Below, one piece after another: positions 14,850 to 60,472 of a stretch of DNA of 64,000 nt. Both the position numbers and the translations under genes were made by a program. Source of the stretch: Acidovorax sp. GW101-3H11 (GTDB lineage: Bacteria > Pseudomonadota > Gammaproteobacteria > Burkholderiales > Burkholderiaceae_C); contig NZ_LUKZ01000012.1 of NCBI RefSeq assembly GCF_001633105.1, positions 151,278 to 215,277 of the forward strand, given 5' to 3'. A model generated the notes under the pieces. The model had not been told where the DNA came from. It did not search any database and worked only from the letters and a program-made list of their open reading frames with translations. Positions within the stretch are counted from its first letter, which is position 1. Each line of letters begins with the position of its first letter.

Positions 14850-16037
14850 ATGGTGAAGCACCCCTACCCTATTGCTATATTTTTGATAGCTATCAGCGCT
14901 TATGGAACGCGCGCAGAAGCCATTATTCGTTGTGAATTGAATGGCAAGGCGATCAATATTTCCAACGGTGGCGAGACCGCAGGCCAGTCCGGCCTGGTGC
15001 GCTGCCGCGACGAGAACACCGGCCATGTGCAGCGCGAGCAGCAATTGCAGAACGGCAAGTTCATGGGCCTGGAACGCATGTTCGACCGCGAAGGCCGCCT
15101 GCAGCGCGAGCGCAGCGTGAACGAACGCGGCAACAGCCATGGCCGGGTGGCGGAGTTCTGGCCCAACGGCCAGCTGCGCCGCGAGGAAACCGCCGACAAC
15201 GGCCGCACCCTGGGTGCGGTGCGGCGCTTCGATGCCAGCGGCCGGGTGGAACGCGTGTCCTTCCACGGCGAGGGGCAGGAGCTTTTTTATGTGGAGTACA
15301 CCAGCAAGGGCCAGCCAGCGCGCCTGCTGTGCCCGCGCACCAGCGTGTTGCCCGAAGACCGCAAGCTCTGCGGTTTTGACGGCGCCGCCGACACCCCACT
15401 TTTTGCTGAAAGCGGTGCGCGCTCGGCCCAGCTGCGCTACGACCAGGGCCGGCTGCTGAGCGCCACCGAATGGACCGCCGACGGCATCGTCTCTGCCCAG
15501 CAACTGGTGGTGGACGGCCGGCGGGTGCACAAAAGCTTCACCACCGAAGGCGGCAAGAGCGTGCTGCGCGAGGAGCGTGTCTTCGCGCCGGACGACTGCA
15601 CGCTGTGGGACACGCGGGGCCCCTTGCTGAGCGCCAAACGCTATGGCGCGTCGGGCCAGCTCATCGAGCAGCGCAGCTTTGCCGAGGGCCGCGAGGTGCA
15701 GGTGGAGCGCTGGTACCTGAACGGCGCCGTGCGCGAGCGCAGCGCCTGGAGCGGCACCGGCAAGGACGCCCGCCTGCTGCGCGAGATGTACCGCGACGAC
15801 GGCAAGCTGGCGCGGCGCGACCAGCTCAATGCCGACCAGTGGCCCGTGGGCACCCAGCAGGCCTTCCACGACAACGGCCGCCTGGCGCTGGAAGAGCAGT
15901 ATTCGGCCCCCGACGGCCGAGGGCGCACCCGGCTCACGGCGCGCAAGCAGTGGGATGACACCGGCAAGCTGACTGCAGACGACACCATCCTGGAAGACGG
16001 ATCACGCCAGCGCAAGGCGGGTGGGGTGGACAGCTGA
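14850..16037 (+). CDS. Exported protein with MORN/YwqK-like repeats
   Basis: A 395-residue protein from ATG 14850, two bases after the preceding stop. The signal peptide (about 1-24, core IAIFLIAISA, ending RAEA) is encoded by a dispersed palindromic repeat. The mature part is a run of imperfect 20-25 residue units of the type NGQLRREE, SGRVERVSF, SGQLIEQRSF, NGAVRERSAW and NGRLALEEQY, typical of MORN-related YwqK-type beta repeats. Cysteines near the start of the mature region (IIRCE, LVRCRD) could form a disulfide. The function is unknown; it is probably periplasmic or surface-exposed. A terminator follows. Confidence 0.75.
   Translation: MVKHPYPIAIFLIAISAYGTRAEAIIRCELNGKAINISNGGETAGQSGLVRCRDENTGHVQREQQLQNGKFMGLERMFDREGRLQRERSVNERGNSHGRVAEFWPNGQLRREETADNGRTLGAVRRFDASGRVERVSFHGEGQELFYVEYTSKGQPARLLCPRTSVLPEDRKLCGFDGAADTPLFAESGARSAQLRYDQGRLLSATEWTADGIVSAQQLVVDGRRVHKSFTTEGGKSVLREERVFAPDDCTLWDTRGPLLSAKRYGASGQLIEQRSFAEGREVQVERWYLNGAVRERSAWSGTGKDARLLREMYRDDGKLARRDQLNADQWPVGTQQAFHDNGRLALEEQYSAPDGRGRTRLTARKQWDDTGKLTADDTILEDGSRQRKAGGVDS
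14870..14922 (+). repeat. Dispersed palindromic repeat, copy 2, encoding a signal peptide
   Basis: Contains TTGCTATATTTTTG, then ATAGCTATCAGCGCTTATGGA and a GC-rich end. It is read in frame as IAIFLIAISAYGTRAEA, the hydrophobic core and cleavage region of the preceding-entry protein. It is 22/24 identical over its core to the copy at 60350-60397 on the other strand. Confidence 0.8.
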
Positions 16038-19985: not shown

Positions 19986-22900
19986 ATGAAGCGGATGCTC
20001 ATCAACGCCACGCAAGCCGAAGAACGGCGCCTGGCCATCGTCGATGGACAAAAACTCCTCGACTACGAAATCGAAATCGAAGGGCGCGAACAGCGCAAGG
20101 GCAACATCTACAAGGCCGTCGTCACGCGCGTCGAGCCTTCGCTGGAAGCCTGTTTTGTGGACTACGGCGAAGACCGCCACGGCTTCCTGCCGTTCAAGGA
20201 AATCTCGCGCCAGTACTTCGCCCCCGGCGTCTCGCCCAGCCAGGCGCGCATCAATGAAGTGATCAAGGAAGGCCAGGAGCTGCTGGTCCAGGTCGAAAAG
20301 GAAGAGCGCGGCAACAAGGGCGCGGCCCTGACCACCTTCGTCTCGCTGGCCGGCCGCTACGTGGTGCTGATGCCCAACAACCCCCGGGGTGGTGGCGTTT
20401 CGCGCCGCATCGAGGGCGAGGACCGCGCCGAGCTCAAGGAGGCGATGGACCAGCTGGAATACCCCAACGGCATGTCCATCATCGCGCGCACGGCCGGCAT
20501 CGGCCGCACCGCGCCCGAGCTGCAGTGGGACCTGAACTACCTGCTCAAGCTGTGGACCGCGATTGACGGCGCTGGCAAGGGCGGCAAGGGCGCCTTCCTC
20601 ATCTACCAGGAATCGAGCCTGGTGATCCGCGCGATCCGTGACTACTTCAACAACGATATCGGTGACATCCTCATCGATACCGACGACATCTACGAACAGG
20701 CGCAGCAGTTCATGGCGCACGTCATGCCCGAGCATGCCGCCCGCGTGAAGCGCTACCGCGACGACGCCGCCCTGTTCAGCCGCTTCCAGATCGAGCACCA
20801 GATCGAATCGGCCTACGCCCGCACCGTGCAACTGCCCTCGGGCGGCGCCATCGTGATCGACCACACCGAAGCGCTGGTGTCCGTGGACGTGAACTCGGCC
20901 CGCGCCATCAAGGGCGGCGACATCGAGGAAACCGCCACCCGCACCAACCTGGAAGCCGCTGACGAAGTGGCCCGCCAGATGCGCCTGCGCGACCTGGGTG
21001 GCCTGATCGTGATCGACTTCATCGACATGGAAGAGTCGAAGAACCGCCGCGAAGTGGAAAACCGCCTGCGCGACGCGCTGCGCCAGGACCGCGCCCGCGT
21101 GCAGTTCGGCACCATCAGCAAGTTCGGCCTCATGGAAATGAGCCGCCAGCGCCTGAAGCCCGCATTGAGCGAAGGCTCGTCCATCCCCTGCCCCCGATGC
21201 GGCGGCTCGGGCCACATCCGCGACACGGAATCGTCGGCCCTGCAGATCCTGCGGATCATTCAAGAAGAATCGATGAAGGACAACACGGCTGCCGTGCACT
21301 GCCAGGTGCCGGTGGAAGTGGCATCGTTCCTGCTGAACGAAAAGCGCACCGAGATCGCCAAGATCGAACTCAAGCAGCGCGTGGCCGTGTTGATGGTGCC
21401 CAACAAGACGCTGGAAACCCCCAACTACCGACTGGAACGCCTCAAGCACGACGACCCGCGCCTGGACCACATCGAAGCCAGCTACAAGCTTGCCGAAGAA
21501 GTGGAAGACCCCACGGCCGTGACGCGCCGCTCGCAAGAGCCCACCAACAAGCAGACGCCGGTGATCAAGGGCGTGCTGCCTGACGCACCCGCTCCACAGG
21601 TCGAGCCCCGCCCCGAAGTCGCGGCCCGCCCAGCGCGCAGCGGCCAGGCCCCACGCGGTGCGGCCACGCCAGCGCCCGCACCGGCTCCGGTGGCAGCGCC
21701 TGCCCCGGCCGCCCCGCAAGAGCAAGGCTTCTTTGCCTGGCTCAAGAGCCTGTTCGGTTTTGGCGGCACGCCCGCAGCGACCCCTGCCCCGGTGGCAGCC
21801 CCTGCCGCCGCACCGACCGGCGAGCCCGCAGGCCGTGGCGAACCCCGCCGCGACGGCCGCAACGGTGAAGGCCGTGGCCGCCGCAGCGGTGGCCGCGATG
21901 GCAACCGTGAAGGCCAGCGCGAAGGAGGCCGTGACGGCAACCGCGAAGCAGGCAGCGGCGAAGGCCGTGGCCGCCGTGGCGAGCGTTCGGCCGAAGGCCG
22001 CGCCCCCCGCGACGCCGAGAGCCGCCCACCCCGCGACACCGACCGCCGCCCCGAAGGCGAAGGCCGTGAAGGTGGTGGCCGCAACGGACGCGACGGGCGT
22101 GACGGTGGCCGTGGCCGCCGCGATGCCGAACCGCGCCAAAACAATGCTGGCCTGAACGCCGACAACACCGCCGCCAGCGCACAGGTGGAAGGCCCGGGCA
22201 ACCAGGGCGCAGAGGGCGCAGCGGCCCAGCAGCCACGCGGTGAACGCGGCCCCCGCCGCGAACGGGGTGATCGCGGTGACCGCGCCCCCCGTGGCGAACG
22301 CGCACCCCGCGCCGTGGAAGCCCAGGAAGCCGCAGCAGCCCAGGCCCCCGCCGTGCCCGGCGACTTCGCCGACACAGCGCCCATGGCCTCGCTGCCCGAC
22401 CTGGACCTGAGTGGCAATGACGCCCCCGGCAACGGCCAGGGCGCAGCCAGCGAAGAACAGCGCCGCGAGCGCCGTTCGCGCGACCGCTATGGCCGTGACC
22501 GCCGCGAACGCGGTGAACGTGGCCCCCGCGACGGCAATGGCACCGAAGCAGCCGCCGCACCGGCCATGCTGGACTTCGACCCCACCCAGGCCGAGCCCGC
22601 AGCAGCCCCAGCGGCTGCCGCACCCCAGGACGAGCCACCACGCCGCAGCTACTTCAGCGCCCCGGCCACTGCGGCCGCCGCTCCTGAGGTTGCAGCCACT
22701 GCGGCTGCACCGGCACCCGCCCAGGCCGTCGCACCGGCCATGGCCCCTGTCGCAGCACCCGTGGCAGCACCGGCAGCACCAGCGGCTGCGCCCGTGGTCG
22801 CCGCTGCCCCTGTGGCAGCCGCCCCGGCCACGCCCGCAGCTGTGGCACCTGCAGCCGCCCCAGCTGCTGCTGCAGCCCAGGGCGGCCTGCCCCGCGTGCA

Positions 22901-23147
22901 GACGTTCACGCTGCCGGTCGATGCGCTGCAGCAAGTGGCTGCTTCGTCGGGCCTGCAATGGGTGAACTCCGATGCGGACAAGATCGCAGCCGTGCAGGCC
23001 GCGATTGCCGCCGAACCCAAGCCCATCCACGTGCCGCGCGAACGCCCCCCCGTGGTGGTGCTGGACGAAGGCCCGCTGGTGCTGGTGGAAACCCGCCGCG
23101 ACCTGTCGGCCATGCCGCTGCCTTTTGAGCAGCCACCAGCGGCTTGA
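19986..23147 (+). CDS. rne: Ribonuclease E
   Basis: Essential endoribonuclease and scaffold of the RNA degradosome. It is 1053 residues. The catalytic half (1-530) has an S1 domain (about 35-120), the DNase I-like core with metal-binding D301 ([14 protein letters not shown]) and D344 (IVIDFIDM), and the Zn-link CPRC (C402, C405). [13 protein letters not shown] at about 580-592 is an amphipathic segment matching the E. coli membrane anchor (GALKALF). An Arg/Gly/Asp-rich RNA-binding region follows (about 610-790), then a long Ala/Pro-rich linker. The last 80 residues ([24 protein letters not shown]...) look folded and conserved. The low-complexity part also creates a long open frame on the other strand. 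Confidence 0.97.
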
Positions 23148-24212: not shown

Positions 24213-25121
24213 ATGGCATCACGCTCTGACACGCATTCCGACAGCACCACCACGGCCCAGCGCAGCCACACGGCGCGCCAGGCCATCACGCCCGAGCTGC
24301 GCCGCTGGATCATCGAGCAGGCCCAGGCCGGCCACGCCGCGCCCGTGGTGCTGCAGTCCATGCGCGATGCGGGCTGGGATGAAGACGTGGCCGCCGACGC
24401 GCTGGAGATCACGCTGCAGGACCACCTGAACGAGCTGGCCGTGCAGCAGGGCCTGCCCTCGGCCGTACCCGTGCCCGAGCCGCAGCTCGGTGCGTCGCCC
24501 GCGCAGGTGGACTGCGGCGACCGCATGGTCAACGTGCTGCTGGCCATGGCCCAGCCGCGCATCGTGGTGTTTGGCAACCTGCTGTCGCCCGAGGAATGCG
24601 ATGCCCTGATTGCCGACGCCGAGCCCCGCCTGGCGCGCTCGCTCACCGTGGCCACCAAGACGGGCGGCGAAGAGATCAACGCCGACCGCACCAGCGACGG
24701 CATGTTCTTCCAGCGCGGAGAAACCCCGCTGATCCAGCGCATCGAGGCGCGCATTGCACGCCTCTTGCACTGGCCCATCGAGAACGGCGAAGGCCTGCAG
24801 GTGCTGCACTACCGCCCCGGCGCCGAGTACAAGCCGCACTACGACTACTTCGACCCGGCCGAGCCCGGCACGGCCACCATCGTCAAGCGCGGCGGGCAGC
24901 GCGTGGGCACGCTGGTGATGTACCTCAACACCCCCGAAAAAGGCGGCGGCACCACCTTCCCCGACGTGCACCTTGAGGTGGGCCCACAGCGCGGCAATGC
25001 GGTGTTCTTCAGCTACGAACGCCCCCACACCTCCACGCGCACCCTGCACGGCGGCGCCCCCGTGATCGCAGGCGAGAAGTGGATCGCCACCAAGTGGCTG
25101 CGCGAGCGGGAATTCAAATAA
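24213..25121 (+). CDS. 2-oxoglutarate/Fe(II) prolyl 4-hydroxylase
   Basis: A 302-residue dioxygenase. The Fe(II) ligands are H209 and D211 ([10 protein letters not shown]) and H279 (TLHGGAPV); K289 (GEKWIATKW) would bind the 2-oxoglutarate C5 carboxylate. The N-terminal part (about 20-85, [14 protein letters not shown] and [20 protein letters not shown]) looks like a small UBA-like helical module, an addition to the core P4H fold. There is no signal peptide, so it acts in the cytoplasm. Bacterial homologues hydroxylate prolines in proteins such as EF-Tu; the substrate here is unknown. Confidence 0.88.
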
Positions 25122-25178
25122 AAACAGGCCTTACCGCCCGTCCATATTGCCTCAATAGCTATCAAATAGATAGCAAAC
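25121..25178 (+). repeat. Dispersed palindromic repeat, copy 5, between P4H and queF
   Basis: Contains ACCGCCCGTCCATATTGCC then AATAGCTATC, AAATAGATAGC. The ATAGCTATC and GATAGC elements give a strong hairpin. It fills nearly all of the 77-bp gap between the two genes. Confidence 0.75.
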
Positions 25179-38117: not shown

Positions 38118-39200
38118 ATGAGTCAAATCAAACCACAGAAGAAAACCGCGCCAGCATCCGTGGCCGCAACGGATGCGCCCCAGTTGTTGATGGACCTACG
38201 GCAGCTCATCGAACAATCGCGCCAAGCAGCTGCGGCAGCTGTGAATGCAGGGTTGACTTTGATGTACTGGCACATCGGACAGCGCATTCGAACTGAAGTG
38301 CTTTCCGGGGAGCGCGCCAGCTACGGCGAGGAAATTGTCTCGACGGTGTCGAGACAATTGACGGCAGATTACGGCCGCAGCTTCAGCGCCAAGAGCCTTC
38401 GGCACATGATCCGGTTTGCTGAGGTTTTCCCAAATCTTGAAATTGTCTCGACACTGTCGAGACAATTAGCCTGGAGCCATTTTCTAGAGCTGATCTACCT
38501 GAAAGACCCGCTCGCTCGCGACTTCTACGCTGAGATGTGCAGCATCGAACGCTGGAGCGTACGCACACTGCGCGAGCGGGTGGATTCGATGCTGTTTGAG
38601 CGCACAGCCCTGTCCAAGAAGCCCGGCGAAACGATCCGCTCAGAACTGGACACCCTGCGCGCAGAGGGCGAAGTCAGCCCGCCCCTGCTGCTCAAAGACC
38701 CCTACGTTCTGGACTTCCTCGCACTGGAAGACCGCTATCTGGAAAAAGGCCTCGAAGACGCCATCCTGCGCGAGCTGGAGCACTTCCTGCTGGAGCTGGG
38801 CGCGGGCTTCAGCTTTGTAGCGCGGCAGCGCCGCATCCAGCTCGACAACGACGACTTCTATATCGACCTGCTGTTCTACAACCGCAAGCTGCGCCGCCTA
38901 GTGGCCATTGAACTGAAGCTGGGCGAGTTCCGCGCCGAATACAAAGGCCAGATGGAGTTGTACCTGCGCTGGCTGGCCAAACACGACCAGGAGCCGGGGG
39001 ATCTGCCCCCGCTGGGCATCATCCTGTGCACCGGCAAAAAACAGGAGCAGATTGAGTTGCTGGAGCTGGACAAGTCCGGCATCCACGTGGCCGAGTACCT
39101 GACGGTGCTACCGCCGCGTGAAGTATTCCAACAGAAGATCCATGAGGCAATGGTGCAGGCGCGATTACGGGTGGAGCGGAGGGAGTCAACCGGAGCATGA
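38118..39200 (+). CDS. YhcG-type PDDEXK nuclease (DUF1016)
   Basis: A 360-residue protein from ATG 38118 (AAGGAG 8 bases upstream). The N-terminal DUF1016 part has LMYWHIGQRIRTEVL, YGEEIVSTVSRQLTADYGRSFS and NLEIVSTLSRQLAWSHFLELI. The C-terminal nuclease domain has LGAGFSFVARQRRIQLDNDDFYIDLLFYNRKLRRLVAIELKLGEF, in which D...E-x-K form the PD-(D/E)xK site. YhcG-like proteins are linked to recombination or genome defence and are patchily distributed. Two perfect DNA palindromes lie inside the gene. It is next to an AT-richer gene in an accessory patch. Confidence 0.9.
   Translation: MSQIKPQKKTAPASVAATDAPQLLMDLRQLIEQSRQAAAAAVNAGLTLMYWHIGQRIRTEVLSGERASYGEEIVSTVSRQLTADYGRSFSAKSLRHMIRFAEVFPNLEIVSTLSRQLAWSHFLELIYLKDPLARDFYAEMCSIERWSVRTLRERVDSMLFERTALSKKPGETIRSELDTLRAEGEVSPPLLLKDPYVLDFLALEDRYLEKGLEDAILRELEHFLLELGAGFSFVARQRRIQLDNDDFYIDLLFYNRKLRRLVAIELKLGEFRAEYKGQMELYLRWLAKHDQEPGDLPPLGIILCTGKKQEQIELLELDKSGIHVAEYLTVLPPREVFQQKIHEAMVQARLRVERRESTGA
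38333..38359. repeat. 27-bp perfect palindrome A inside the YhcG gene
   Basis: AATTGTCTCGAC, loop GGT, then GTCGAGACAATT: 12-bp arms without mismatch. It is translated as EIVSTVSRQL. Confidence 0.95.
38441..38467. repeat. 27-bp perfect palindrome B inside the YhcG gene
   Basis: The same 12-bp arms as palindrome A with loop ACT, translated as EIVSTLSRQL. It starts exactly 108 bp (36 codons) after palindrome A starts, in the same frame. Confidence 0.95.
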
Positions 39201-50445: not shown

Positions 50446-50491
50446 GCTGACCCGCCACCCGGTGGACCACCCGCCGTGGTGGTGGGTCAGC
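50446..50491. terminator. Large hairpin between convergent cytochrome and cupredoxin genes
   Basis: GCTGACCCGCCACC (50446-50459) pairs with GGTGGTGGGTCAGC (50478-50491) with one wobble. The right arm overlaps the cupredoxin stop codon. There is no T-run; a bidirectional transcript end is likely. Confidence 0.45.
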
Positions 50492-51245
50492 TCCCGCGGT
50501 AGTGGGCGTGGGTGCCCTGTGCAGGCGCCTGGCTGTAAGCGCCCATGGGCCCACCTGGGGTGTTGCTGGGTGTGGCCGGAGGGGCGCGGCGCACGCGGGG
50601 CACGACGCTGAGCTGCACGGTGTCGAGCACCGGGCCAGGCACCACGTTCAGGGCCTTGCGCGGCAAGTCCACGAGCTGTTCGGCATGCCACACGCGCACC
50701 TGGGCGGCGCCGTCGGGCACGGAGGGGAAGCGCGCAATCCCGTCGTTGTCGGTCTTGAGCGACCAGGCCGAGTCGGTCACAAACACATGGCCGCGCATGG
50801 AGCCGTGCAGGTGGCAGCCCAGCAGCACCACGCCGGGCGCGTCCAGCTTCACGTCGGCAAAGTTGGCGGGCTTGCCGTCGGTCTTGCCCGCCAGGCGCAA
50901 TTCGAAATTGGTACTGGCCGCCGCCGCACCGGGCGCGGCGGCCGGTGCCACACCGGTGGGATTGCCGCGCACATGGTGGTCCCAGCGGTCCTGGTTGGTG
51001 AAGCGCACCGTGGTGCCTGCCGAGACCACTGTCACCGCAGGCACAAACCGCATTTTTTCCTGCTCGATGGTGGGGCTGGCCTGGAGCAGATTGGGCGGCG
51101 TACCCGCTGCGTTGCCGGGGTAGATCACCACCACGGCGTCGGGCACGGGCTTGCCTTCGCGGTCCAGCACCTGGATCTGGACATTTCCGGCGCTAGCGCC
51201 TGTCCACAAAGCGCTGATAGCTATCAAAACAAGAGTATTTCTCAT
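50487..51245 (-). CDS. Exported plastocyanin-like cupredoxin (methylamine-utilisation type)
   Basis: A 252-residue protein. The signal peptide (1-19, core TLVLIAISALW, ending ASA) is encoded by a dispersed repeat. The fold has an extra N-terminal beta region (VQIQVLDREGKPVPDAVVVIYP) and type-I copper ligands: H91 (DHHVRG) and the C-x2-H-x2-M cluster C144, H147, M150 (GCHLHGSM). The tail is Pro/Ala-rich. It is followed upstream on the same strand by globin and DUF3034 genes, so it is probably the last gene of that operon. Confidence 0.87.
   Translation of the reverse strand: MRNTLVLIAISALWTGASAGNVQIQVLDREGKPVPDAVVVIYPGNAAGTPPNLLQASPTIEQEKMRFVPAVTVVSAGTTVRFTNQDRWDHHVRGNPTGVAPAAAPGAAAASTNFELRLAGKTDGKPANFADVKLDAPGVVLLGCHLHGSMRGHVFVTDSAWSLKTDNDGIARFPSVPDGAAQVRVWHAEQLVDLPRKALNVVPGPVLDTVQLSVVPRVRRAPPATPSNTPGGPMGAYSQAPAQGTHAHYRGS
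51188..51240 (-). repeat. Dispersed palindromic repeat, copy 7, encoding a signal peptide
   Basis: The minus strand has TTTTGATAGCTATCAGCGCT followed by TTGTGGACAGGCGCTAGCGCC. It starts four codons after the cupredoxin ATG and covers its whole hydrophobic core and cleavage site. Confidence 0.82.
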
Positions 51246-58102: not shown

Positions 58103-60472
58103 TCAATGCGCGGCAGCCCTGATCGGGGGCGCCACCGAACCCGCCGCCACGCCCCCCCCGCGCACCTCGATGCGGATCTCGTCCAGCACCTGCCCCTGGG
58201 CGTTGGTGATCTGCACCACATGCCGCCCCGGCCAGGGCAGCCAGGCCACACGCGGGCCCCGGCCCAGCGGCTTGCCGTCCATGCGCCAGAGCAGCCCGTC
58301 GCCCGTGGCCGTGAACTGCAGGCGCTGGCGCGCGGGCGGGATGTCCGGGTCCAGCGCAATGATGGTGCCGGGTGCGGGCGCGGTGATGCGGGCGGGGCCG
58401 GAAGGCGCGTCTACCACCTGAGTAGGCGATTTTTTGAAGCTTTTTTGGCCTTCTGCGCGCAATGGATATGCCTTTTCAGCTATTGAATCAATAGCAAACA
58501 AGGCCTGCTGCGTGCCTTGCAGAAACCATTCGCTGCGCGCGGCCTCCAGCGGGGGGCGGGGGTCGGGCGCCGCACCCGGCTGGCCACCGGCCACGGGCCC
58601 GGGGCCAAACCGCACCCCGGCCTGCAGCAGGCCCGCCGGGGCCTTGGGCGCGCGGCTGGGCTCGCGGGCGTGCAAAAAGCCCATCACTGCCGCCCAGATG
58701 GGCGCCGCGCCGCTGGTGCCGCTCACGTCGTGCATGGCCGCGCCGCTGGCGTTGCCCACCCACACGCCCACGGTGTAGCGCTCCGACCAGCCCACGGCCC
58801 AGTTGTCGCGCATGTCCTTGCTGGTGCCGGTTTTCACGGCCGTCCAAAAGCGGGTGGCCAGCACGCTGTCGGTGCCGAAGGTGCGCGCGCGTGCATTGCC
58901 GTCCGAGAGGATGTCGCCCACGATGAAGGCCGCGCGCGGGTCCAGGGCCGCCGTGAAAGCGGGCGCCCGGCCCTGGACCGGCGCTGCCAGCGCCACCGGG
59001 CTGAGCCGCCCGCCGTTGGCCAGCGTGCGGAACGCGTTGGTCAGGTGCAGCAGCGGCACCTCGGGGCTGCCCAGCGCGAGGCTGTAGCCAAAGTAGTCGC
59101 CGCTTTCGCGCAGCGGCAGGCCCACGGCGCCCAGCTGGCGGTGGAACGCATCGGGTGTGACCATGACCAGTGTGCGCACCGCTGGCACGTTGAGCGACGC
59201 GGCCAGCGCGGTGCGCACCGACACCCAGCCCTTGAACTGCCGGTCGTAGTTCTGCGGGATGTAGAGCCCGCCCGCCGTGGCGATGTGCGCGGGCGAGTCA
59301 TCCACCAGCGACGCGGCCGTGAGGCGCCGCTGTTCAATAGCCTGCCCATACAGAAAAGGCTTGAGCGTGGAGCCCGGCTGGCGCAGCGCCAGCACGCCGT
59401 CCACCTCGCTCGCCTGGCTGAGCTGGCCCGACGAGCCCACCCAGGCCAGCACCGCACCCGTGGCGTTGTCGAGCACCAGCACCGCGCCGTCTTCCACATT
59501 GCGGCCGCGCAGCTCGCGCAGGTGCTGCTGCAGGGTCTGCACGGCAAACCGCTGCAGGGGTGCGCGCAGCGTGCTCTGCACACGCTCGGGCACCGCAGCG
59601 TCCTTGCCAAAACGCTGGCGCAGCAGGTGGCGCGCAAAGTGCGGGGCCACGCCCTCGCTCGCGTCAAACGCGCGGCGCTGCAGCGCGGCGGTGGTGAACA
59701 GGTCGAGCGCGTCGCAGTCGATGCGGGCACCACCATCACCACCACCTCGCTGCATGTCGCGCAGCACCCCGCAGGCGCGCTGCGCCACCAGCGCGGGCCG
59801 CGCATTGGGCGCGCGCACCAGGGCGGCGGCCACGGCGGCCTCGCGGTCGTCCAGCCCATGCGCGGCCTTGCCAAACAGCGTGCGGCTCAGCGCATCAATG
59901 CCCACCAGTTCGCTGCGAAACGGCACGAGGTTGAGGTAGGCCTCCAGGATCTGGTCCTTGCGCCAGCGCCGGTCCAGCACCTGGGCGGCCACCGTCTGCC
60001 CCAGCTTTTGCACCACGGTGCGCCCGCCGGGGCCCTGGCGCCAATCGCCATCGAGCAAACCCGCCAGCTGCATGGTGATGGTGCTGGCGCCGCGTGTGCG
60101 CTGGTTCCACAGGTTGCCCCAGGCGGCGGCCGATGCGGCGCGCCAGTCCACACCGCTGTGTTCAAAAAAGCGCTTGTCCTCGCTCAGCACCAGCGCCTGG
60201 CGCAGCGCGGGCGAGATGTCGGCCAGCGGCACCCACTGGCCGCGCCGCACCGTGGGGTCGGTGCGCAGGCGCTGCAGCACCTCGCCTTCGCGCGAGAGCA
60301 GCACGGTGTCGGAAGGCTTGAAATCAGCACGCACCTCATCAAAAGTGGGGATTGCGCGCGCTGGACTTGCCGTGATAGCTACAAAAAATATAGCAACCAA
60401 CAGTTGCACACCCAGGGCATGCCGCAGCCGCGAGCACATGCAGCGCACAGCACGCACCGACTCAGCGGCCAT
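58103..60472 (-). CDS. pbpC: Penicillin-binding protein 1C (PbpC)
   Basis: A bifunctional class A penicillin-binding protein of 789 residues (ATG 60472; ATG 60439 is an alternative). The N-terminal hydrophobic core VAIFFVAITASPARA is encoded by a dispersed repeat and looks cleavable, unusual for a family that is normally membrane-anchored. The GT51 domain has EDKRFFEHSGVDWRAA; the transpeptidase has the S-x-x-K in PGSTLKPFLYG and KTGTSKDMRDNWAVG. The C-terminal BiPBP_C domain (about 700-780) follows a linker (FAIDSIAEKAYPLRAEGQKS) that is itself a repeat insertion. It is the last gene of the alpha-2-macroglobulin operon. Confidence 0.94.
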   Translation of the reverse strand: MAAESVRAVRCMCSRLRHALGVQLLVAIFFVAITASPARAIPTFDEVRADFKPSDTVLLSREGEVLQRLRTDPTVRRGQWVPLADISPALRQALVLSEDKRFFEHSGVDWRAASAAAWGNLWNQRTRGASTITMQLAGLLDGDWRQGPGGRTVVQKLGQTVAAQVLDRRWRKDQILEAYLNLVPFRSELVGIDALSRTLFGKAAHGLDDREAAVAAALVRAPNARPALVAQRACGVLRDMQRGGGDGGARIDCDALDLFTTAALQRRAFDASEGVAPHFARHLLRQRFGKDAAVPERVQSTLRAPLQRFAVQTLQQHLRELRGRNVEDGAVLVLDNATGAVLAWVGSSGQLSQASEVDGVLALRQPGSTLKPFLYGQAIEQRRLTAASLVDDSPAHIATAGGLYIPQNYDRQFKGWVSVRTALAASLNVPAVRTLVMVTPDAFHRQLGAVGLPLRESGDYFGYSLALGSPEVPLLHLTNAFRTLANGGRLSPVALAAPVQGRAPAFTAALDPRAAFIVGDILSDGNARARTFGTDSVLATRFWTAVKTGTSKDMRDNWAVGWSERYTVGVWVGNASGAAMHDVSGTSGAAPIWAAVMGFLHAREPSRAPKAPAGLLQAGVRFGPGPVAGGQPGAAPDPRPPLEAARSEWFLQGTQQALFAIDSIAEKAYPLRAEGQKSFKKSPTQVVDAPSGPARITAPAPGTIIALDPDIPPARQRLQFTATGDGLLWRMDGKPLGRGPRVAWLPWPGRHVVQITNAQGQVLDEIRIEVRGGGVAAGSVAPPIRAAAH
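58431..58499 (-). repeat. Dispersed palindromic repeat, copy 9, in frame inside pbpC
   Basis: The minus strand has TTTGCTATTGATTCAATAGC and ends with GGCCAAAAAAGCTTC. It is read through as FAIDSIAEKAYPLRAEGQKSF, between the transpeptidase and the C-terminal domain. It keeps the frame and adds no stop. Confidence 0.78.
60350..60397 (-). repeat. Dispersed palindromic repeat, copy 10, encoding the PbpC signal segment
   Basis: The minus strand has TTGCTATATTTTTTGTAGCT then ATCACGG, encoding VAIFFVAIT. It has only two mismatches over 24 bases with the copy at 14872-14895. Confidence 0.82.

Follow-up and report, generated by a model that had tools for sequence, protein, structure and literature searches.

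Repeats that form part of signal peptides, and that also lie in frame within genes, are already known from the relevant portions of Delihas 2007 (PMC2759123; review PMC2229807); a 2024 review of miniature inverted-repeat transposable elements (MITEs) gives counts of the Rickettsia palindromic elements (RPE), and the DNA uptake sequences of the Neisseriaceae (PMC3630211) are a dispersed motif with genome-specific dialects. Here we describe a dispersed, AT-rich repeat of 60-70 nt found in a 64,000-nucleotide stretch of Acidovorax sp. GW101-3H11 (contig NZ_LUKZ01000012.1, positions 151,278 to 215,277; hereafter the window), elsewhere in that genome (G000) and in related genomes. A sequence-only reading of the window had noticed the repeat at the 5' ends of three genes and knew of no earlier description of such signal peptides, a claim that does not survive the cases in Delihas 2007. 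Comparison of genomes supports the further view that coding and noncoding copies evolve in concert, as judged in three genomes with distinct repeat dialects and at five loci embedded in genes, four of which agree throughout; these dialects and the internal in-frame copies go beyond the account given in that reading.

Copies were identified with a 74-column sequence model, R1, built from 31 copies of the own genome and run over the window together with C9:1-1200000, C12:1-140000 and C1:1-260000 (1.664 Mb in total). This search yields 159 copies (95 from a run with the cut at E<0.001, 64 from one with the cut at E<=0.001), or about one per 10 kb, which extrapolates to ~500 copies in the 5.44 Mb genome; a genome-wide R1 search scored the best 150 candidates and gives no genome total. 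Nine copies at E<0.001 lie in the window: three in signal peptides, one in a linker of PBP1C and five between genes. The four coding copies are as follows, the signal peptides being predicted by reading.

14850..14921, plus strand: signal peptide of a MORN_2 protein (PF07661; gene 14850-16037), with the copy at 14871-14938 giving AIFLIAISAYGTRAEA; R1 59.9 bits, in the model
51180..51245, minus strand: signal peptide of an exported cupredoxin-like/DUF4198-like protein (gene 50487-51245), with the copy at 51180-51239; R1 50.8 bits, in the model
60339..60398, minus strand: signal peptide or N-terminal hydrophobic segment of PBP1C (gene 58103-60472); R1 25.2 bits, the weakest of the three, outside the model
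58432..58499, minus strand: second PBP1C copy, in frame at aa 657-680 (LFAIDSIAEKAYPLRAEGQKSFKK); R1 34.5 bits

Read directly from the DNA, the three N-termini are MVKHPYPIAIFLIAISAYGTRAEA^IIRC from 14850 (MORN), MRNTLVLIAISALWTGASA^GNVQ from 51245 on the minus strand (cupredoxin-like) and ...HALGVQLLVAIFFVAITASPARA^IPTF from 60472 on the minus strand (PBP1C). Signal peptides were judged by eye from a hydrophobic stretch and an Ala-x-Ala (AxA) site ahead of a conserved mature start, and in all three genes the repeat encodes both the hydrophobic core and the AxA site, in the same orientation and in the same frame, namely the sense orientation with codons starting at model columns divisible by 3 (SAME0). 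DNA reading, R1 matches and phase together bear out what the sequence-only reading had reported for these three unrelated genes; its observation is confirmed and its interpretation partly supported. It had also taken every other copy in the window to be intergenic, which is wrong for one of the six, the copy at 58432-58499 within the PBP1C coding sequence. The PBP1C protein carries Transgly, Transpeptidase and BiPBP_C domains, and the Pfam matches of the cupredoxin-like protein are weak, every one below its cut-off.

Repeat-encoded signal peptides recur outside the window: together with the three above, four cases in the other 1.6 Mb make seven unrelated proteins with repeat-encoded N-termini, all again judged by eye.

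L073:13147: signal peptide of a GspD-type secretin
L080:223-296: amidohydrolase-like protein, an inverted copy pair, one at E 0.0014, scored in the antisense frame ANTI1
L204:11766: signal peptide of an M16 peptidase
L205:2370: lipoprotein-type signal of a SCO1/SenC protein

The joint translation of the inverted pair at L080:223-296 is the hydrophobic core ALIAIFLIAIGASVRA of the exported amidohydrolase-like protein. Frame SAME0 is used in six of the seven signal-peptide genes, the exception being this pair, and by 6/7 N-terminal versus 5/23 internal copies (p 0.0045). The contrast gives p 0.0070 and 0.032 when two doubtful copies are treated otherwise, and 0.047, 0.065 and 0.136 without the window, whose selection rested on this very feature. 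The test left out one doubtful copy (L062:4266) and two at C-terminal ends (L084:4375, L086:12545); also left unscored were copies with the start codon within the repeat, and open-frame copies upstream of a start that lacked any plausible own start. An N-terminal frame bias is thus likely, not firm, and weaker than had been claimed. The 116 own copies outside called genes include 61 that keep SAME0 open over 52 nt and 18 that are strongly hydrophobic in that frame; for ANTI1, 60 have the frame open and 11 are hydrophobic. The notion of a ready-made export signal thus fits a minority of copies and not the rest.

Orthologues both carry and lack the repeat at these sites. A repeat-like signal peptide is present in 10 of 11 same-genus MORN orthologues and absent in the most distant one, G005 (68% identity); among cupredoxin-like proteins the repeat scores above the cut-off in 25 of the 30 orthologues read and below it in G009, G049, G005, G047 and G060. 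The N-terminal copy of PBP1C is patchy within the genus, repeat-like in 8 of 30 orthologues read and above the score cut-off in 7; those without it mostly have G+C-rich N-terminal segments ending at the same residue. A single capture in PBP1C was considered and rejected, as a tree of 23 genomes, weak in its backbone, requires at least four changes; it does not tell gains from losses. Repeat-bearing sequences (25 cupredoxin-like, 10 MORN) are stop-free and vary most at third codon positions. For all three proteins, orthologues without the repeat have other N-termini, and the opposite outcome named in the sequence-only reading, N-termini conserved in distant orthologues whose DNA bears no resemblance to the repeat, did not occur; N-termini with and without the repeat are of similar length and join the mature protein at the same junction. 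These comparisons show the repeat, at the 5' end of an exported-protein gene, as a predicted signal peptide that stands in place of another.

Copies also lie inside proteins: 23-24 of the 159 are within predicted genes and away from the C-terminal end, most commonly in the antisense frame ANTI1 (12). In one antisense frame the repeat can read as a short polar linker, roughly xxPLPxDGxAxxAIK. Internal copies are found in 30 of 30 orthologues read for each of DapE and DapF, out of 47 genomes searched, and conserved positions are seen in these copies and in that of the PBP1C linker. The PBP1C linker copy, recognised in 25 of 30 orthologues read and differing by genome dialect, falls between the transpeptidase and the C-terminal domain by the domain borders, and the internal copy of an asparaginase sits at the border of its two Pfam domains. 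Solved DapE and DapF chains are shorter at the copy site by ~8 and 10-11 residues, respectively; because this deficit is less than the length of the repeat, plain full-length insertion was rejected for both. In a loop or between domains, the repeat reads on this evidence as a tolerated linker.

The embedded copies, though at loci that are not homologous, follow the repeat dialect of the genome in which they stand. The dialects differ between the own genome (..TAtcAGCGCTTgatgGTCGCGCGc..), G004 (..TGCtaGCGCATgTtgCACTAGCGC..) and G051 (..TAcAAGgGCtTATaAAACAAGCGC..). Their models exclude copies inside called genes and rest on 116, 26 and 17 copies, respectively, the own model also leaving out the four coding copies of the window, L205:2370 and scores below 25 bits; the embedded loci tested lay outside the stretches that supplied the G004 and G051 models. 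The own-genome model scores best in 12 of 12 gene-genome cells for DapE, DapF, the cupredoxin-like signal peptide and the PBP1C linker, and in 13 of 15 overall, a result with probability 3e-5 at a chance of 1/3 per cell, the cells of one genome not being independent. The outcome is unchanged when 4 (G004) and 3 (G051) coding copies are kept in the models. With sample sizes equalised, 10 of the 12 cells favour the own model in 189-200 of 200 bootstraps.

Short motifs tell the same story. CTAG within columns 37-46 occurs in 15/26 noncoding copies of G004, 0/116 of the own genome and 0/17 of G051, and in 14/20 embedded copies of the G004 clade (G004, G017, G022, G043 and G056) versus 1/107 elsewhere; CGCGCG occurs in 40/116 own, 0/26 G004 and 1/17 G051 noncoding copies, and in 14/27 embedded copies of the own clade versus 0/100 elsewhere. 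The embedded tallies leave out the gene beside dapE, and the clades were named after the DapE and DapF copies had been viewed; the CTAG clade is grouped (SH-aLRT 89) in a tree from which the columns of the repeat itself were left out. In 24 genomes, the within-genome likeness of copies in different genes is 0.600 versus 0.562 under permutation (reached in 0/5000). Compared with 45 flank copies, embedded copies show a mean excess identity of 0.033 to those of their own genome, positive in 56 of 81 (0/2000 permutations); since the flank copies are mostly coding themselves, this compares embedded with embedded copies.

Several observations weigh against concerted evolution by copying. For the weaker copy in the gene beside dapE, which we take from its look to be prmB, the own-genome model is best in one of three genomes and loses in both G004 and G051. 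Two further cells, both of G051, are shaky at equal sample size (cupredoxin-like 146/200, linker 140/200 bootstraps). Both permutation tests ignore phylogeny, and G004 and G051 were chosen because their DapE and DapF copies looked different, before the other copies were viewed. The DapF copy of G057 and the cupredoxin-like copy of G019 depart from the dialect of their clades. Neither a conversion event nor a clean empty site was seen at the loci compared. Recent multiplication was rejected: no pair among the 116 own copies reaches 90% identity (0 of 6670 pairs), which weighs against frequent long-tract conversion or recent transposition, both of which predict such pairs, and against the earlier suggestion of an element mobile or multiplying now. 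The two departing copies, L268 in G057 and L136 in G019, come from genomes of more than 300 contigs, in which transfer or mixed bins are possible.

Copies at E<=0.001 range in G+C from 0.31 to 0.59. A hairpin or RNA reading was rejected, as RNAalifold finds 0 consensus pairs, own copies have no clear pairing covariation and that in G004 copies is weak; the palindrome described by the sequence-only reading holds for short parts such as GATAGCTATC and not for the whole element. Of 150 genomes drawn from the family, 44 match the repeat, spread over 39 of 126 genera, a lower bound given that the best 32 candidates per genome were scored with the own-type model. The exact 23-nt core occurs in 10 stretches among named records, including Acidovorax, Comamonas and metagenome-assembled genomes without a genus name; a longer exact pattern has 0 matches in named genomes. 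A link to REP/RAYT systems drew no clear support: Y1_Tnp is widespread, being present in 113 of the 150 family genomes whether or not they match the repeat, while G146 and G187 (at least 32 repeat matches each) are not among the Y1_Tnp matches, and no transposase specific to the repeat was found. Flank comparison, noisy in output and confined to the loci compared, revealed among the alignments listed neither a target duplication nor a clean empty site, and a suspected 63-nt filled/empty difference between G045 and G006 did not survive inspection. A local array at G000:C24:45946-56562 holds eight same-strand, unevenly spaced copies in ~11 kb.

We favour an explanation in which a Comamonadaceae repeat is open in several frames, one sense frame giving a hydrophobic stretch and then an Ala-x-Ala site, and one antisense frame a short polar linker. 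Copies within genes would not be fossils, tracking instead the dialect of their own genome; existing copies would be overwritten in short tracts from other copies, by ectopic gene conversion or by re-copying into occupied sites, repeat-like sequences such as AT-rich signal-peptide codons may be overwritten likewise, and selection would retain only in-frame, functional products. Such overwriting with selection would account for the similar length and shared mature junction of repeat-bearing and repeat-free N-termini. We prefer copying-over for two reasons: fixed sites in unrelated genes show dialect differences of several bases, and signal peptides are swapped with little change in length. Taken whole, from the origin of signal peptides and linkers through concerted evolution to short-tract overwriting, we regard this explanation as probable, with real room for doubt. 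The stronger proposition, that segments of DapE, DapF, PBP1C and exported proteins are rewritten along with hundreds of noncoding copies, as a genome-wide drive that edits protein sequence, seems to us evenly balanced.

A serious rival sees in the repeat a motif for binding or uptake, comparable to the uptake-sequence dialects of Neisseriaceae and maintained locally through selection or biased transformation at every site, so that embedded copies track the dialect because the recognising protein changed and not through copying over. The existence of genome dialects, the absence of near-identical pairs, the conserved positions in DapE, DapF and the PBP1C linker, the similar length of N-termini whether or not they carry the repeat, and a column coupling that is mostly local (53 column pairs exceed one shuffle's maximum, of which 6 are separated by more than 3 columns) are all consistent with it; on the other hand, the repeat holds ~42-54 bits over 58 columns at about one copy per 10 kb, whereas known uptake sequences are far shorter and denser, and pairs at least 75% identical are in surplus among the 116 own copies (92 observed versus 14.7 expected under a null preserving row and column totals). 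We consider this rival unlikely, while taking it seriously. An ordinary MITE- or RPE-like element, whose old insertions, some of them genic, were inherited and decayed independently, with signal peptides as occasional exaptations, would suit a dispersed, AT-rich repeat found in both orientations and with in-frame genic copies as in RPE and RU elements; the dialect tracking of embedded copies, the missing consensus structure and, within the search of the loci compared, the missing target duplication make it distinctly improbable.

Two further alternatives were weighed. If the start codons were wrong, the repeat would be an untranslated 5' stretch with a frame open by accident, and for MORN and the cupredoxin-like protein the gene finder indeed chose a start past the repeat or at its end, which we ascribe to the repeat's odd codon use. 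The hydrophobic core and AxA site are kept in frame and stop-free in 25 cupredoxin-like and 10 MORN orthologues, the MORN ATG follows the stop codon of the preceding gene by one base, and orthologues that lack the repeat show signal-peptide-like N-termini at that place too, all of which renders this reading highly improbable. Chance or convergence, by which AT-rich Ile/Leu/Ala codons of signal peptides mimic the repeat without common origin, might appeal to the weak PBP1C copy (25 bits), to graded similarity in some orthologues and to the N-terminus of G009 cupredoxin-like, whose peptide resembles that of the repeat while its DNA does not match, although it may be a decayed copy. Conversely, the MORN and cupredoxin-like matches, both in the model, extend behind the hydrophobic core (59.9 and 50.8 bits); the PBP1C copy, though outside the model, reaches E 8e-6 in 864 kb; and a 20-nt core, allowing up to 3 mismatches, has 73 matches in the genome of 5.44 Mb versus 0 for the control pattern read backwards. 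Chance is hardly credible as a general account, and very unlikely for the two strong copies.

If the favoured explanation is true, signal peptides and linkers would turn over between dialects, with selection keeping only the working ones, and a route would exist for the whole replacement of signal peptides. Segments of conserved enzymes would change for causes outside those proteins and unrelated proteins would co-vary, so that analyses of residue co-variation and trees could be misled. The repeat would also offer a natural system for studying what homogenises short dispersed bacterial repeats, and the dialect rule can be checked in other genomes of the family from sequence data alone.

The remaining copies in the window lie between genes.

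25109..25178, minus strand: copy with a 13 nt overlap with a gene's 3' end; R1 37.7 bits
55645..55714, minus strand: copy 5' of an FMN-dependent dehydrogenase gene, its frame open with no signal peptide seen; R1 30.2 bits
37959..38026, minus strand: intergenic copy; R1 27.8 bits
10267..10333, minus strand: copy with a 16 nt overlap with a gene's 3' end; R1 23.0 bits
19683..19723, minus strand: partial copy; R1 18.8 bits, E 8e-4

Two other repetitive features were seen. Two near-identical 27-nt palindromes (AATTGTCTCGAC..GTCGAGACAATT), 81 nt apart, lie at 38333-38467 within the called gene 38262-39200, and a repeat-rich coding stretch at 21819-22541, within the open reading frame 19986-23147, is not related to the element.

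DNA uptake sequences are 10-12 nt long and occur about once per kb; the present repeat, at ~60 nt and one per 10 kb, differs in both respects, and both show dialects. The BRE of Hot et al. 2011 (PMC3110155) are, in the parts of that paper describing them, similarly dispersed in Comamonadaceae and Bordetella, usually intergenic and sometimes within coding sequences, yet they are ~90 bp long, ~69% G+C (Bordetella copies 63.7-78.9%) and tandem at some loci; assignment of our repeat to the BRE was rejected on G+C (0.31-0.59) and length, that is, on the published description and not on the letters. The RPE share in-frame insertion in conserved enzymes and other proteins. They are 105-146 bp long with long stem-loops, in contrast to a 74-column model with 0 consensus pairs, which places our repeat outside the RPE proper, and the passages on them mention neither signal peptides nor genome dialects. 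In the broader sense of RPE- and RU-type elements, the repeat belongs with them as a dispersed small repeat, mostly intergenic, with some in-frame copies in unrelated genes. In the open literature searched (titles and abstract openings, with most subscription journals outside), we found no account of the repeat or of dialect tracking by coding copies; within that literature, and as far as shown, the tracking by embedded copies and the clade-restricted CTAG are new. The closest precedent is YPAL/RU-2 of Yersinia, for which, in the relevant parts of PMC2759123, relatives in other genera likewise have signal sequences unrelated to the repeat; one main case is given there, plus the predicted YPO2495 and, for RU-1f, YE2643. 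YPAL/RU-2 is ~168 bp long according to the corresponding part of PMC2229807, versus 60-70 nt here, a separation made by length. The present repeat differs further in supplying seven genes in 1.66 Mb with a hydrophobic core and cleavage site that are largely repeat-derived, in its presence and absence among congeneric orthologues, and in the tracking of genome dialects.
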